DNA of 64,000 nt from Polaribacter pacificus (GTDB lineage Bacteria > Bacteroidota > Bacteroidia > Flavobacteriales > Flavobacteriaceae), in NCBI RefSeq assembly GCF_038024035.1, contig NZ_CP150664.1:2170001-2234000 (forward strand), read 5' to 3'. This document shows, one piece after another, positions 33,525-63,973 of this stretch. Both the position numbers and the translations under genes were made by a program. Within the stretch, counting starts at the first letter, position 1. Every line of letters starts with the position of its first letter. The notes beneath the pieces are model-generated. The model was not told the origin of the DNA. It saw nothing but the letters and a program-made list of their open reading frames with translations, and ran no database searches.

Positions 33525-34778
33525 TTACAAGCCAAAAGCCTCTTTTACTTTGTCTACATAATCTAATTTCTCCCAAGTAAACAACTCTACATCCATAGTT
33601 ATAGGATCTCCATTTGGTTGTTCAAAGGTTTTGGTTACTACCTCGTTTTGACGACCCATATGTCCATAAGCAGCTGTTTCGCTATAGATTGGGTTACGTA
33701 GTTTTAACCTGTCTTCAATTGCCGCTGGTCTCATATCAAAAAGTGTACTTACTTTGGCAGCAATTTCACCGTCAGTCATATTAAAAGGGCAGGTTCCGTA
33801 AGTGTCTACAAAAACACCCATCGGCTCTGCAACTCCAATTGCATAAGAAACCTGTACTAAAATTTCATCAGCAACACCCGCTGCAACAAGATTTTTTGCA
33901 ATATGACGTGTTGCATAAGCAGCACTTCTATCTACCTTACTTGGATCTTTTCCAGAAAAAGCACCACCACCATGGGCTCCTTTTCCTCCGTATGTATCTA
34001 CGATGATTTTTCTTCCTGTTAAGCCCGTATCTCCATGAGGTCCGCCAATCACAAATTTACCTGTTGGATTGATGTGATATTTAATGTCATCTGTAAATAA
34101 GGTTTGAATCTCTGGGCTTAATTGAGCTTTAACTCTAGGAATCAATATTTCAATAATATCTTTTCTGATTTTTGCCAACATTGCTGTTTCTTCATCAAAG
34201 TCATCGTGCTGAGTAGAAACCACAATCGCTTCGATTCTTTGAGGAACATTGTTATCAGAATATTCAATTGTCACCTGGCTTTTTGCATCAGGTCTTAGGT
34301 ATTCTATTTCTTTGTTTTCTCTTCGTAAAACAGCTAATTCCTTTAAAATAAGATGCGATAAATCTAAAGCCAACGGCATTAAGTTTTCAGTTTCATTGGT
34401 TGCGTAACCAAACATCATTCCTTGATCTCCTGCACCTTGCTCTTCTTTATTAGCTTTGTCTACACCGCGATTGATATCATCAGATTGCTCGTGAATAGCA
34501 GAGAAAACACCACATGAATTTCCATCAAACATGTATTCACTTTTTGTGTAACCAATTTTATTGATCACATCTCTTGCAATTTTTTGAACATCTAAGTAGG
34601 TGTTTGATTTTACCTCGCCGGCAAGCACAACCTGTCCTGTGGTAACAAGTGTTTCACAAGCTACTTTTGACGCTGGGTCAAAGGCTAAAAAATGATCAAT
34701 TAATGCATCAGAAATCTGATCTGCAACTTTGTCTGGGTGTCCTTCTGAAACAGATTCGGACGTAAAAAAATAAGACAT
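33525..34778 (-). CDS. metK: S-adenosylmethionine synthetase
   Basis: 417 residues. Makes SAM from methionine and ATP. Signatures: [13 protein letters not shown] at 5-17, [12 protein letters not shown] near 120 and the P-loop-like [19 protein letters not shown] near 270. It lies next to, but diverges from, the methionine operon and has its own promoter (TACCTTTG, 34914-34921). Its ~130-base leader contains a structured element with a T9 tract (34807-34885). Confidence 0.98.
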
Positions 34779-34806: not shown

Positions 34807-34885
34807 AAAAAAAAATGTGATTGCGTTAGAGCGATAAAGGAGTAGAAATGTACTGCTTTAGCTTTTTTTAATGAGGTTGCAATCA
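34807..34885 (-). promoter_or_regulatory. Structured metK leader, attenuator or riboswitch candidate
   Basis: On the minus strand, TGATTGC (34885-34879) pairs perfectly with GCAATCA (34824-34818), and a run of nine T follows two bases later (34815-34807), as in an intrinsic terminator. Inside, a 10-bp hairpin with one C-C mismatch (TAAAGCAGTA / TACTCCTTTA, 34860-34835) is flanked by unpaired AACCTCATTAAAAAA and CTAAC. It does not match the SAM-I, SAM-II or SAM/SAH patterns I know. Regulation by SAM is inference from the gene. Confidence 0.45.
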
Positions 34886-34913
34886 GTTCAAATTTTTCCT
34901 CGAGTATTAAGGG

Positions 34914-35037: not shown

Positions 35038-35067
35038 CACTCAGAAAGTTCAAGAACTTATTGAAAT

Positions 35068-35188
35068 GTTATCAAGAAAGGTGGAGGGATTAGACCCATT
35101 GAAACCTTAGCAACCCTTTACACTTAGTAAAGAAGGTGCTAAATTCTACTTAATTTCGGATTCATTTATCAGAAATTGGATAGATAAC
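35068..35188 (+). promoter_or_regulatory. SAM-I (S-box) riboswitch
   Basis: The aptamer core is visible: P1 arms GTTATC (35068) and GATAAC (35183), the strand AAGAAAGGTGGAGGGATTAG, then ACCCATTGAAACCTTAGCAACC read in pieces, which match the conserved S-box. P3 is the CTTTAC...GTAAAG hairpin. SAM binding should lower expression of the operon starting at 35314. The ~125-base platform after it holds hairpins ACAATTAC/GTAATTGT (35196-35217) and CGTCAGT/ATTGACG (35250-35267), the second followed by a broken T-rich tract, so transcription termination is plausible. Confidence 0.93.
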
Positions 35189-35313
35189 TAAACAAACAAT
35201 TACAGGCCAGTAATTGTATGCAATCTTTATAACATTTTTCTAGTAGGTACGTCAGTAAAAATTGACGCATTTGGCTTTTGTTTTAATTTTTTATTAACTC
35301 AAAAAAAAGAAAA

Positions 35314-36606
35314 ATGAGTACACAAAATTTTGCAACCAATGCGTTGCACGCAGGACACGATGTTGCACAAACATCAGGCACCAGAGCAGTCCCAATTTAC
35401 CAATCAACCTCGTATGTGTTTAACGATTCAAACCATGCTGCAAATCTTTTTTCATTAAAGGAGTTGGGTTTTATTTATACCCGATTAAACAATCCTACAA
35501 ATCAAGTTTTACAAGATCGTTTAGCGGCTTTAGAAGGCGGAATTGGTGCGGTGGTATTTGCTTCAGGCGCCGCTGCTATTTCTACGGGTTTACTAACCTT
35601 GTTAAAAGCAGGAGATCATATTGTGGCTTCTAGCAGTTTGTATGGAGGGACTTATAATTTGTTAAAGGTCACCTTACCAAGATTGGGCATTACAACCACT
35701 TTTGTGGATGCTACAGAGCCAGAAAATTTTGGGGCAGCGGTTCAAGAAAACACCAGAGCTATTTTTGTGGAGTCTTTAGGGAATCCAAAATTAGATGTGT
35801 TGGATTTGAAAGCAATTTCTCAAGAAGCCAAAAAGGCTAAAATCCCATTTATTGTAGATAATACTGTAGCGAGTCCAGCCTTGTTAAACCCAATAAAACA
35901 CGGTGCGGATATAGTTATTCACTCGTTGACAAAATACATTGGAGGGCATGGAAATTCTTTAGGAGGCGCAATTATTGATGCAGGAACCTTTGATTGGTCT
36001 AGCGGAAAATTCCCAGAGTTTACAGAACCTTCTGCAGGTTACCACGGTTTGGTATATCACCAAGTTTTAGGTGCCGCGGCTTTTACTTTTAAATTAATTT
36101 TAGAGGGCCTCCGTGATTTTGGAGGGGCATTAAGTCCTACGAATGCTTTTCATATTATTCAGGGCTTAGAAACTTTAGAATTGAGAATTAAAAAACACAG
36201 CGAGAACGCATTGGCTTTGGCGCAATGGCTAGAACATCAAAAAGAAGTTGCCTGGGTTAATTATCCAGGATTGTCCAGCAGTCCCTATAAATCATTGGCT
36301 GATATGTATCTCCCAAAAGGTCAAAGTGGCTTGGTTACTTTTGGCGTCAAAGGAGGTTTTGAAGCTGCAAAAACCATTGCTGATTCTACTCAGTTATTTT
36401 CTCTGTTGGCAAATATTGGAGACACAAAATCACTCATCATTCATCCAGCGAGTACCACACATCAGCAATTAAACAACGAGGAGCAACTTAGTGCAGGAGT
36501 CTCTGAAGATTTAATCAGGTTGTCTGTTGGTATAGAGGATCTTGAAGATCTAAAAAAAGATTTGCAAGAGGCATTTGCTAAGATTAATCATCAGGTTCTT
36601 GCCTAA
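35314..36606 (+). CDS. metY: O-acetylhomoserine sulfhydrylase (MetY)
   Basis: 430 residues, cystathionine gamma-synthase-family PLP enzyme of the longer MetY type. It makes homocysteine from O-acetylhomoserine and sulfide. PLP Lys207 in HSLTKYIGGHG; early YQSTSYVF and YTRLNNPTNQVLQ motifs; late HPASTTHQQL. First gene of the SAM-riboswitch operon. ATG 35314 is preceded by an AAAAAAAGAAAA stretch. Direct sulfhydrylation is thus encoded beside a second family member at 40136. Confidence 0.95.
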   Translation: MSTQNFATNALHAGHDVAQTSGTRAVPIYQSTSYVFNDSNHAANLFSLKELGFIYTRLNNPTNQVLQDRLAALEGGIGAVVFASGAAAISTGLLTLLKAGDHIVASSSLYGGTYNLLKVTLPRLGITTTFVDATEPENFGAAVQENTRAIFVESLGNPKLDVLDLKAISQEAKKAKIPFIVDNTVASPALLNPIKHGADIVIHSLTKYIGGHGNSLGGAIIDAGTFDWSSGKFPEFTEPSAGYHGLVYHQVLGAAAFTFKLILEGLRDFGGALSPTNAFHIIQGLETLELRIKKHSENALALAQWLEHQKEVAWVNYPGLSSSPYKSLADMYLPKGQSGLVTFGVKGGFEAAKTIADSTQLFSLLANIGDTKSLIIHPASTTHQQLNNEEQLSAGVSEDLIRLSVGIEDLEDLKKDLQEAFAKINHQVLA

Positions 36607-60947: not shown

Positions 60948-60978
60948 TTTGTTTGTTTCAAATTAATCTTTAGATTTG
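60948..60978 (+). promoter_or_regulatory. Promoter of the pheA operon
   Basis: TTTG at 60948-60951, 19-base spacer, TAGATTTG at 60971-60978. Perfect consensus; predicted transcription start near 60984, 19 bases before the leader peptide ATG. Confidence 0.8.
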
Positions 60979-61002
60979 TCAGCATATAACAATTAGACAA
61001 AG

Positions 61003-61062
61003 ATGTTACAAAACGTTTGGCAAGGTTTCTATTTTTACTTTTATTTTTTTAATAAGAGCTGA
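61003..61062 (+). CDS. Leader peptide of the phenylalanine/tyrosine operon
   Basis: A 19-codon frame, MLQNVWQGFYFYFYFFNKS, ends with TGA at 61060. Codons 9-16 (61027-61050) are an unbroken run of five Phe and three Tyr. Such runs mark leader peptides of ribosome-mediated attenuation (as in pheL of enterobacteria). Its stop codon overlaps the start of the antiterminator arm (61060-61068), so a ribosome that finishes translation masks that arm while one stalled in the run leaves it free. Too short to be a normal protein gene. Confidence 0.85.
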   Translation: MLQNVWQGFYFYFYFFNKS

Positions 61063-61130
61063 GACTTTGTATCGTATTGTTACCTAAAAATAATATTTCA
61101 TAAAGTCTCGAATTTCGAGGCTTTTTTTTT
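61060..61130 (+). promoter_or_regulatory. pheA attenuator: mutually exclusive antiterminator and terminator
   Basis: GAGACTTT (61061-61068) is perfectly complementary to AAAGTCTC (61102-61109). The latter is also the 5' arm of the terminator AAAGTCTCGA (61102-61111) / TCGAGGCTTT (61115-61124), loop ATT, followed by T to 61130. The two stems cannot form together. The terminator ends 9 bases before the pheA ATG. Confidence 0.85.
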
Positions 61131-61138
61131 GCACTAAA

Positions 61139-61966
61139 ATGAACAAAAAAATTGCCATACAAGGAGCTGAAGGCTCCAATCACCATAAGGTCGCTTACGA
61201 TTATTATGGCGCTAATATAGCCATTGTAGAATGCATGTCTTTTGATGCCTTGGTTGCAGCTTTGCTAGACAACACCTGTGATGAAGCTGTCATGGCGCTA
61301 GAAAATACAATTGCAGGGTCTATCATCCCAAACTATGCGCTTATAGATCAGAATAACCTATACGTTAGCGGTGAGTACTACTTAAATATACATCATCATT
61401 TAATGGCGTTGCCTAATCAAAAGCTTGGTGATATTGTAGAGGTTTGCTCACATCCCATGGCCTTATTGCAGTGCAAAGAATACTTTAAAAAGTACCCGCA
61501 GATTAGATTGGTAGAAGATGTAGATACTGCCGAAGTCGCCAAGAGAATCGCTAAAAACAAATTAAAAGGAGTTGCGGCAATTGCACCAAAAATCGCCGCT
61601 GATATTTTTGGCTTAGAGGTGTTGGCTGATGACATACAAACCATCAATAGCAATGCAACACGCTTTGTTATTCTAAAAACTAAGGATGCAGAAGATTCAG
61701 AGAAAAGTGCTAATAAAGCCTCGTTAAAATTCACTTTAGATCATCAAAGAGGAAGCCTAGCAGCGCTTTTAAATGTAATGAGTGATTGCAATTTAAATCT
61801 AACCAAAATACAATCATTGCCCATCATAGAAACGCCTTGGAAATACGCATTTTTTGTCGATGTAACCTTTGAGAACTATGCAGATTATCAAAAAGCAAAA
61901 TCAATCATCGCCATCATGGCCGATGAATTTAAAATTTTAGGAGCCTATAAAAACGGAAAACTATGA
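61139..61966 (+). CDS. pheA: Prephenate dehydratase
   Basis: 275 residues, dehydratase plus C-terminal ACT domain, no chorismate mutase domain. Converts prephenate to phenylpyruvate. Catalytic region ALENTIAGSI near 59 and NATRFVIL near 175 (the TRF motif). In the ACT domain (~195-275) the usual Phe-binding GALV and ESRP motifs read GSLAAL and QSLP. Overlaps the next start by 4 bp (ATGA). Expression is predicted to respond to charged Phe/Tyr tRNA through the upstream attenuator. Confidence 0.95.
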   Translation: MNKKIAIQGAEGSNHHKVAYDYYGANIAIVECMSFDALVAALLDNTCDEAVMALENTIAGSIIPNYALIDQNNLYVSGEYYLNIHHHLMALPNQKLGDIVEVCSHPMALLQCKEYFKKYPQIRLVEDVDTAEVAKRIAKNKLKGVAAIAPKIAADIFGLEVLADDIQTINSNATRFVILKTKDAEDSEKSANKASLKFTLDHQRGSLAALLNVMSDCNLNLTKIQSLPIIETPWKYAFFVDVTFENYADYQKAKSIIAIMADEFKILGAYKNGKL

Positions 61967-63111
61967 TCGCACCAGCAGCAAGATTAGAACAAATACAAGA
62001 GTACTACTTCTCTACAAAGTTAAGAGAAGTTAGAAGCCTAATAGACGCAGGAAAACCTGTCATTAATTTGGGTATCGGAAGTCCAGATTTACAACCATCT
62101 CCCAAAGTGATTAAAGCTTTGAGCAGTAGTTTTGATGTAGAGTCAGCACATATGTATCAGAGTTATCAAGGAACAGCTGCATTTAGAGAAGCCATTGCTG
62201 GTTTTTATAAAAAACAATTTGCTGTGGTCTTAAATCAAGATACAGAGGTGCTACCGCTAATGGGTAGCAAAGAAGGGGTTTTGCAAATTTCTTTGGCTTT
62301 TTTAAACAAAGGTGATGCTGTCTTGATTCCCAATCCAGGCTATCCAACTTACAGTTCTGTAACCAATTTGGTTGGAGCAAAACCTGTGTTTTATAATTTA
62401 AGTGCTCAAAACGATTGGCAACCAGATTTTGATGCTTTAGAGCAAGAAGATTTGTCAGCCGTTAAATTGATGTGGGTTAATTACCCGCACATGCCCACAG
62501 GTGCCAGCGCGCAATCGCAAACCTTTGAACGTTTGATAGCCTTTGCGACCAAACACAAGATTTTAATAGTAAATGACAATCCATATAGTTTTATTTTAAA
62601 TGAAAGTCCTAAAAGCATCTTGCAATATCAAGGGGCAAAAGACTGTGCATTAGAGTTAAACTCGCTGAGTAAAAGTTTTAATATGGCAGGTTGGAGAGTC
62701 GGAATGTTATTGGGAAAACAATCCTATTTAGAGCAGGTTTTAAAGGTGAAAACTCAAAGTGATTCTGGGATGTTTTTTGGGATTCAACAAGGCGCCATTG
62801 CTGCGCTTAACCTAGAGCAGGATTGGTTTAGAGCACAAGATGAGATTTACCATGAACGGAGAAAATTGGTTTGGCAACTTGCAGAAGAATTGGGTTGTAA
62901 GGTTGATAAAACCGCTGCAGGATTGTTTGTTTGGGCGCAGGTACCTCTAGCTAAATCCTCAGAAGAAATGACAGACATGTTATTGTATGATTATAATGTT
63001 TTTGTGGCGCCAGGAACCGTTTTTGGATCTAACGGAGAGGGCTATATTCGTTTTTCACTTTGTGTAAGTAAAGAAGTGATTCTTAAAGCCTTGAATCGAG
63101 TAAAAAAATAA
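61963..63111 (+). CDS. PLP aminotransferase, class I/II, of aromatic operon
   Basis: 382 residues, fold-type-I aminotransferase. GSPDLQPSP near 40, NPGYPTYSS near 125, VNYPHMPTGA near 180, PLP lysine in LNSLSKSFNMAGWR near 232. Its place between prephenate dehydratase and prephenate dehydrogenase genes indicates transamination of phenylpyruvate and 4-hydroxyphenylpyruvate (or prephenate). The canonical NxPTG motif has His-Met before PTG here (YPHMPTG). Translation is coupled to pheA by a 4-bp overlap. Confidence 0.9.
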   Translation: MIAPAARLEQIQEYYFSTKLREVRSLIDAGKPVINLGIGSPDLQPSPKVIKALSSSFDVESAHMYQSYQGTAAFREAIAGFYKKQFAVVLNQDTEVLPLMGSKEGVLQISLAFLNKGDAVLIPNPGYPTYSSVTNLVGAKPVFYNLSAQNDWQPDFDALEQEDLSAVKLMWVNYPHMPTGASAQSQTFERLIAFATKHKILIVNDNPYSFILNESPKSILQYQGAKDCALELNSLSKSFNMAGWRVGMLLGKQSYLEQVLKVKTQSDSGMFFGIQQGAIAALNLEQDWFRAQDEIYHERRKLVWQLAEELGCKVDKTAAGLFVWAQVPLAKSSEEMTDMLLYDYNVFVAPGTVFGSNGEGYIRFSLCVSKEVILKALNRVKK

Positions 63112-63121
63112 ACTAGAAAAA

Positions 63122-63973
63122 ATGAACGTAGTAATTATAGGTTTGGGTTTAATTGGAGGAAGCTTTGCTTTAGATCTTCAAGAGCACTATGATGAGATAG
63201 CGGTTTTTGGGATTGATGCAAATGAAGACCATATAAAAAGTGCAATTGCTTTGGGAATCATACAAGAGAAAACCAGTTTTGAGCGATTGAATGAAGCAGA
63301 TGTTGTGTTGGTCGCTATCCCAGTAGATGCACAATTGCAAGTGCTGCCCAAGGTGTTGGATGCTATCAATGACCATGCGTTGGTTATTGATGTAGGATCA
63401 ACAAAAGAAAAAATTTGTGCTCTGTTAAATACACATCCCAAAAGAAGAAACTATTTAGCGGCACACCCGATTGCAGGAACAGAATATTCTGGACCAACTG
63501 CGGCAATTAAAAATTTATTCTCTAACAAAACCAATATAATTTGTGAGGTAGAAAAAACGGCCTTTAAATTGCAAGAAAAGGCTTTGGATATTTTTTATAA
63601 ACTGGGAATGCGAATTCGATATATGGATGCAGTTTCTCATGATAAACACATTGCCTATGTATCGCATTTATCGCATATCAGTGCCTTTATGTTAGGGAAA
63701 ACAGTCATAAAAAAAGAGAAAAACGAGCGCGATATTTTTGATATGGCAGGGAGTGGCTTTGCCAGTACGGTTCGATTGGCTAAAAGTTCTCCGGCTATGT
63801 GGGCTCCCATTTTTGAGCACAACAAAACCAATGTAATTGAAGCCTTGGATGGCTATATAGAAAACCTTCAGCAGTTTAAAAAACTGATGGAAAATGATCA
63901 ATTTACAGCCATTTATGAAGAAATGGCAAATACAAATAGAATAAAAGAAATATTAAACGGAATAAACCTATAA
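63122..63973 (+). CDS. tyrA: Prephenate dehydrogenase
   Basis: 283 residues. NAD(P)-binding IIGLGLIGGSFA at 4-15, catalytic His in AAHPIAGTEYSG near 115 and HDKHIAYVSHLSH near 178. Oxidatively decarboxylates prephenate (or arogenate) toward tyrosine. No ACT domain, so little feedback control is expected at the enzyme. Third gene of the attenuated operon; an ATG at 63996, right at the window edge, may open a fourth gene that cannot be identified. Confidence 0.93.
   Translation: MNVVIIGLGLIGGSFALDLQEHYDEIAVFGIDANEDHIKSAIALGIIQEKTSFERLNEADVVLVAIPVDAQLQVLPKVLDAINDHALVIDVGSTKEKICALLNTHPKRRNYLAAHPIAGTEYSGPTAAIKNLFSNKTNIICEVEKTAFKLQEKALDIFYKLGMRIRYMDAVSHDKHIAYVSHLSHISAFMLGKTVIKKEKNERDIFDMAGSGFASTVRLAKSSPAMWAPIFEHNKTNVIEALDGYIENLQQFKKLMENDQFTAIYEEMANTNRIKEILNGINL

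Follow-up and report, generated by a model that had tools for sequence, protein, structure and literature searches.

The enterobacterial pheL/pheA attenuator has a short leader, arms that pair as 1:2, 2:3 and 3:4, and a terminator before pheA, as at the locus described here. However, pheL is Phe-rich and is not known to contain a Phe-Tyr run, and the enterobacterial tyrA lies in another operon. The enterobacterial leaders thrL (Thr/Ile) and ilvL (Ile/Val/Leu) each read several end products of a single pathway. These leaders serve other amino acids and operons than the present one and, to our knowledge, neither contains an alternation like the Phe-Tyr run.

Closer in both gene and family is a structured 5′ element upstream of pheA in Flavobacterium psychrophilum, which was described without an Rfam hit and as conserved in other genera of the Flavobacteriaceae (Guerin et al. 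2021, PMC9723704). Leader-peptide attenuation is also named there for amino-acid operons of F. psychrophilum. In the main text of that paper, as far as it was available, there is nothing on leader sequence, codon content, antiterminator or operon logic, though its supplements may cover part of it. Bacteroid-trp RNA (RF01692), a candidate cis-regulatory RNA of Bacteroidetes (PMC2864571), is named for trp and by its name is no pheA element; the pheA leader studied here has no Rfam match at gathering thresholds. An earlier note on this DNA, made from the sequence alone, had held that few attenuators of this kind are described in Flavobacteriia; few indeed came up, but the pheA element of F. psychrophilum is already in print (PMC9723704). 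The kind of attenuator, and probably this pheA element, is already known. What is added here is the anatomy of the element, its dual code, its spread through the class, its matched arms and the operon logic, none of which we found in the open-access papers searched, a set outside which most subscription papers fall.

The window is a 64,000-nucleotide stretch of Polaribacter pacificus DNA, and the parts of the leader are as follows.

60948..60951, + strand: putative −33 element TTTG (sequence; the TTTG/TANNTTTG consensus is quoted in PMC6847099)
60971..60978, + strand: putative −7 element TAGATTTG (sequence; the G at −10 is unusual)
61003..61062, + strand: leader peptide ORF MLQNVWQGFYFYFYFFNKS, 19 codons, ATG at 61003-61005 and stop TGA at 61060-61062 (sequence and chance control)
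61018..61020, + strand: Trp codon 6 of the leader (in relatives with a placeable column, almost always W, F or Y)
61022..61029, + strand: arm 1 (AAGGTTTC), protector strand, within the leader and pairing with arm 2 (folding)
61027..61050, + strand: sensor run, codons 9-16, F Y F Y F Y F F (sequence; a mixed Phe/Tyr run in relatives)
61061..61068, + strand: arm 2 (GAGACTTT), 5′ strand of the antiterminator, overlapping the leader stop by 2 bases (sequence, folding and swap test)
61102..61109, + strand: arm 3 (AAAGTCTC), common to antiterminator and terminator (folding and swap test)
61117..61130, + strand: arm 4 (GAGGCTTT, 61117-61124) and six T (61125-61130), completing the intrinsic terminator (sequence, terminator search and folding)

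Much of this layout had been read correctly in the earlier note, namely a 19-residue frame whose codons 9-16 are all Phe or Tyr, an arm that begins at the stop codon and pairs with an arm of the terminator, and a terminator before pheA. The note had placed the terminator 9 bases from pheA; the T-tract ends 8 bases upstream of the pheA start at 61139. It had also called the attenuator complete: arms 2 and 3 and the terminator stand, but arm 1 had gone unnamed. The terminator search returned a single site, with its stem at 61102-61124 (shuffles, mean 0.3, sd 0.6), and Rfam 15 covariance models at gathering thresholds gave four matches in the window, none of them at the pheA leader. The start codon of the leader has a favourable context, with A at −3, −6 and −12 but C at −13; in F. 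johnsoniae these positions are important (PMC6847099). Bacteroidia mRNAs are described in the same source as lacking Shine-Dalgarno sequences.

The promoter, which had been called perfect, did not live up to that word. The promoter-like box, TTTG-N19-TAGATTTG at 60948-60978, fits TTTG/TANNTTTG but carries a G at −10, which departs from the revised F. johnsoniae consensus TAHHTTTG and is virtually absent in the set underlying it (PMC6847099). Among the first 30 loci, only 21 have TANNTTTG within 60 nt of the leader ATG, and the nine that lack it have AAGATTTG. Across 229 leaders an exact TANNTTTG lies within 80 nt in 60, against 9/229 in mononucleotide shuffles, and 169/229 have no exact box upstream. 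We regard a promoter at 60948-60978 as plausible and not as perfect. The G that TAHHTTTG excludes is found in TAGATTTG, yet this element recurs in 19/30 of the first loci.

The leader precedes four genes, the last of which runs past the end of the window.

61139..61966, + strand: pheA, prephenate dehydratase (PF00800 above cut-off; NCBIfam NF008865 at 185 bits, below its cut-off of 219)
61963..63111, + strand: class I/II aminotransferase (PF00155 above cut-off; no NCBIfam model above cut-off among the best 25 of 70)
63122..63973, + strand: tyrA, prephenate dehydrogenase (NF006307 above cut-off)
63996-65081, running past the window end: DAHP synthase (PF00793) fused to a type II chorismate mutase (PF01817) (profile search)

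For the DAHP synthase, too, NCBIfam models score below their cut-offs. Therefore, the names of pheA, the aminotransferase and the DAHP synthase rest on Pfam and gene order. An operon of pheA, aminotransferase and tyrA had been proposed; the three genes are there, but its extent was too short, since the DAHP synthase-chorismate mutase follows beyond the window. A search of the one-contig genome with PF00793 returned two proteins, the other being the KDO-8-P synthase KdsA (TIGR01362, 372.9 bits, cut-off 314), and PF01474, a further DAHP synthase model, had no match in this genome. The DAHP synthase-chorismate mutase of the operon is the sole DAHP synthase found in the genome. We fetched 96 leader loci with 1.8 to 5.3 kb of downstream DNA, and all 96 carry a relative of this gene (48-86% identity, against 27% for the genome's own KdsA) that starts no more than 3.3 kb after the pheA start. 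In 12/96 of these loci tyrA was not found downstream, one of them, L116, holding just 1.8 kb; all 12 leaders keep Tyr codons.

We compared the 400 bases upstream of pheA at 178 loci, which are part of those available (one scan found pheA in 277/299 genomes of the family). The window's family contributed 123 of these, other families in the order 21 and other orders in the class 34. A leader was scored where an ATG ORF contained at least 5 Phe/Tyr in 8 residues. By this threshold 153/178 loci carry a leader (122/123 in the family, 9/21, one doubtful, elsewhere in the order and 22/34 elsewhere in the class), compared with 8/178 on the antisense strand and 150/3560 dinucleotide-preserving shuffles. 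At a threshold of at least 7 in 8 the counts were 106/178, 0/178 and 2/3560, respectively. The earlier note had proposed such a comparison of upstream regions and would have taken a lack of conservation as refuting its reading; the Phe/Tyr-rich frame proved to be conserved, which favours that reading. Thus a predicted Phe/Tyr switch of the same kind is borne by many relatives across Bacteroidia.

The 25/178 loci without a leader by this threshold include those of family f5, which have a distant pheA (0/8 with a leader), and those of tiny genomes in family f16, where the only leader in four loci is the doubtful L077. The others are L074, L054 in the window's own family and 12 class loci. L077 meets the threshold and is counted among the 153, but it has no terminator and is probably a chance match. 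Two of the loci that failed the threshold were inspected by eye and counted as lacking a leader: L097 has a short frame ending TYFWFY before a terminator and may be a missed leader, whilst L112 showed none. At the level of the phylum, 20 genomes were picked from the 128 that gave a match. A leader was found in 4/4 further members of the class, one with a GTG start. Members of other classes with a Bacteroidia-like pheA (42-44% identity) had one in 3/3 cases, and genomes with a more distant pheA in 0/13. The Phe/Tyr-rich leaders of those three members of other classes (L270, L271 and L272) may reflect either shared descent or transfer of gene and switch together. A set of named records, the best 80 of at least 592 loci and overlapping the 178, gave 77/80 with a leader, among them Tenacibaculum, Polaribacter, Flavobacterium, Maribacter, Arenibacter and Zobellia; of the three that lack it, one has a pheA truncated by a contig end.

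Within the leaders the Phe/Tyr content is kept while other residues vary. The 43 leaders of the window's group contain 13 distinct runs that differ mostly at third codon positions, the rows having been chosen by their Phe/Tyr pattern. The length of the frame varies among these relatives. In many close relatives (L004, L010, L014 and others) the TGA at 61060-61062 is replaced by a sense codon and the frame continues through arm 2, for example as ...RRDFVSCC.

The whole leader of the window folds as 1:2 plus 3:4 (−31.2 kcal/mol, z −4.46), and with RNA up to 61098 the probability of 1:2 is 0.99. The window RNA folds as 2:3 if its 5′ part is left out or if transcription has not yet reached arm 4. 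Arm 1 lies inside the leader ORF in the window, and the folds of some relatives also show a protector arm. A terminator, searched for downstream of the run and consisting of a hairpin and a T-tract, follows in 152/153 leader loci, all at −8 kcal/mol or better with a median of −13.4. Six of these picks had an over-long arm 3 and were excluded, together with L077, from the pair counts and from both stall simulations across relatives (n=146).

The arms recur in relatives with changed sequences, and the pairs vary by lineage (GAGAC/GTCTC, GGGAC/GTCCC, GGGAT/ATCCC, GAGGC/GCCTC and others). When arm 3 was swapped among 54 representatives, the summed duplex energy of each arm 2 with its own arm 3 was −590.4 against −408.9 (sd 16.6) for swapped arms, and 0/5000 permutations were as good; a representative's own arm 3 was among the best tenth for 27/54. 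Compensatory changes, which had been anticipated in both stems, are thus likely for arms 2 and 3, relatedness being ignored in the swap test as well. At pair 2, 133 anchored loci gave 65 A-U, 50 G-C, 15 A-C and 3 G-U, counts that ignore relatedness and drop 20/153 leaders (the six with an over-long arm 3, L077 and 13 without an anchorable arm). A misplaced anchor is indicated in 13/15 of the A-C rows, which have GGG elsewhere in the stretch. In a MAFFT alignment of 97 loci, arm 2 is out of register between groups by a column or two. At the stage when arm 3 has been made, the fold is more stable than 95% of shuffles in 136/152, an energy that includes the hairpin inside the run, but the share of arm 3 paired upstream (at least 60% paired) beats shuffles in only 23/152; in some loci (L038, L053, L098) this test took the protector hairpin as the terminator.

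We simulated stalls by masking the ribosome footprint on the RNA and calculating folding probabilities by A-site codon. For the full-length RNA of the window, the probability of 2:3 was 0.96-0.98 with codons 9, 10 or 12 (Phe9, Tyr10, Tyr12) in the A site and 0.76-0.95, depending on the footprint, with codon 11 (Phe11). With the ribosome at the stop codon, or with none, 3:4 had a probability of 0.95. In simulation the window's RNA thus behaves as the geometry of classical amino-acid attenuation, recognised earlier, would predict: stalls at the first Phe and Tyr codons favour the antiterminator, and a ribosome at the stop codon favours the terminator. Stalls at codons 2-8, before the run, can antiterminate too. 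Codon 13 is mixed and stalls at codons 14-16 favour the terminator, and therefore the effective stretch after the start of the run is short. Alternation of Phe and Tyr places codons of both amino acids within it.

Across the relatives, at the point where arm 3 had just been made, upstream pairing took up half of it or more in 139/146 leaders at both the first-Phe and the first-Tyr stall, compared with 38/146 when the ribosome was at the stop. Without a ribosome arm 3 was already paired upstream in 110/146, and therefore termination without translation relies on earlier formation of 1:2. In full-length equilibrium folding a stall switches to the antiterminator in only 32/146 (Phe) and 28/146 (Tyr) leaders; the terminator usually wins, and for most of these 146 the switch does not follow from equilibrium folding alone. 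Therefore, the switch must be kinetic, a matter of timing, in most leaders. In classical attenuation, too, timing decides the fold.

Taken together, these data make it very probable that the pheA leader is a ribosome-mediated transcription attenuator with a two-amino-acid sensor, acting as a Phe/Tyr OR-gate. For promoter use, leader translation, termination and the response to Phe or Tyr we infer the following course. Transcription would start near 60983, with a ribosome translating the 19-codon leader behind the polymerase. When Phe-tRNA and Tyr-tRNA are both plentiful, the ribosome would reach the stop codon at 61060 and its front would cover arm 2; arm 3 could then pair with arm 4, and transcription would stop near 61130, giving an RNA of about 148 bases. 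Should either charged tRNA run short, the ribosome would stall near codons 9-12 and cover arm 1, leaving arm 2 free to pair with arm 3, and the polymerase would enter pheA-aminotransferase-tyrA-DAHP synthase/chorismate mutase. Without translation, 1:2 would form first and then the terminator. Aromatic amino-acid synthesis in many Bacteroidia thereby gains a regulatory model that is concrete and can be tested.

It is conceivable that the attenuator responds in effect to Phe alone, as enterobacterial pheL does, with Tyr codons tolerated for the sake of a T-rich RNA and Tyr starvation playing a minor part. Phe does outnumber Tyr (24.2% vs 15.0% of leader residues) and 1/153 leaders has a single Tyr codon. 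However, Phe and Tyr codons are both present in 153/153 leaders, so that not one of them has the Phe-only control codons of the pheL type, and none of the 77 leaders found in the named set (best 80 of at least 592 loci) lacks Tyr. The first Phe and the first Tyr of the run are adjacent in 108/153. Moreover, the 66 distinct strings switch between the two residues 3.5 times on average against 3.03 (sd 0.13) in same-residue shuffles, 0/2000 of which did as well, relatedness being ignored. Simulated first-Tyr stalls match first-Phe stalls (140 and 139 of 146), and the 12 operons without a found tyrA retain their Tyr codons. We consider a Phe-only response unlikely on these grounds, and the suggestion that one switch senses both end products of the operon comes out strengthened. 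The dual code fits the operon's DAHP synthase, the entry enzyme common to both products, rather than tyrA alone: it tracks this shared enzyme and not tyrA, because the DAHP synthase is present at 96/96 loci whilst Tyr codons persist at the 12 without a found tyrA. This suggests that sensing follows the shared entry enzyme.

In another explanation, the leader binds a protein or tRNA, as in T-box or RNA-binding-protein systems, and the short frame is incidental. A terminator with an antiterminator is, by itself, common to such systems, yet no Rfam family was found at the locus at gathering thresholds and the Phe/Tyr content of the frame is kept where other residues are not. The third-position differences among the 13 distinct runs point the same way, a weak argument given that the rows were selected by Phe/Tyr pattern. 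We hold such a binding leader to be very improbable. Still less credible is a constitutive terminator behind a T-rich spacer, the Phe/Tyr frame being a by-product of T-richness. The region is T-rich, TTT and TAT codons come easily in such DNA, and the pattern FYFYF has 16 matches in the window's own genome against 11 in a reversed control, which is near chance, two of the 16 being the leader itself. Against this, dinucleotide-preserving shuffles and the antisense strand rarely yield frames of this kind, and arms 2 and 3 are matched in the swap test.

A two-amino-acid attenuator remains our preferred reading, and its natural leaders vary in the order and number of Phe, Tyr and Trp codons, a set in which the reading of several amino acids by one attenuator could be studied. 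The column three codons ahead of the run could be placed in 107 distinct leaders out of 216; it is W in 77 of these, F in 19, Y in 6 and a different residue in 5. On a pheA tree of 80 labelled loci, with L130 removed from the labels by hand, this column changes at least 15 times but crosses between aromatic and non-aromatic as few as two times at minimum, although there is no single-base route from TGG to a Phe or Tyr codon. These data suggest that the column is under selection for any aromatic amino acid. A simulated stall at the Trp codon of the window allows antitermination (0.52-0.76), though less strongly than stalls at codons 9, 10 and 12 do. It is possible, though we think it rather doubtful, that the leader is a three-input OR-gate through which Phe, Tyr and Trp would all control the pathway's sole entry enzyme. 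Against Trp sensing, 59/153 leaders have no W and one codon is a weak sensor. If the three-input reading were true, alternation would place the codons of each amino acid in the short stretch where a stall works.

Lastly, elsewhere in the window a SAM-II riboswitch and a SAM/S-box riboswitch stand back to back in one intergenic region, at 34848-34907 (−) and 35066-35190 (+). The former precedes a gene that reads, by eye, like a SAM synthetase (33525-34778, −), and the latter one that reads, likewise by eye, like a sulfhydrylase of Cys/Met metabolism (35314-36606, +).
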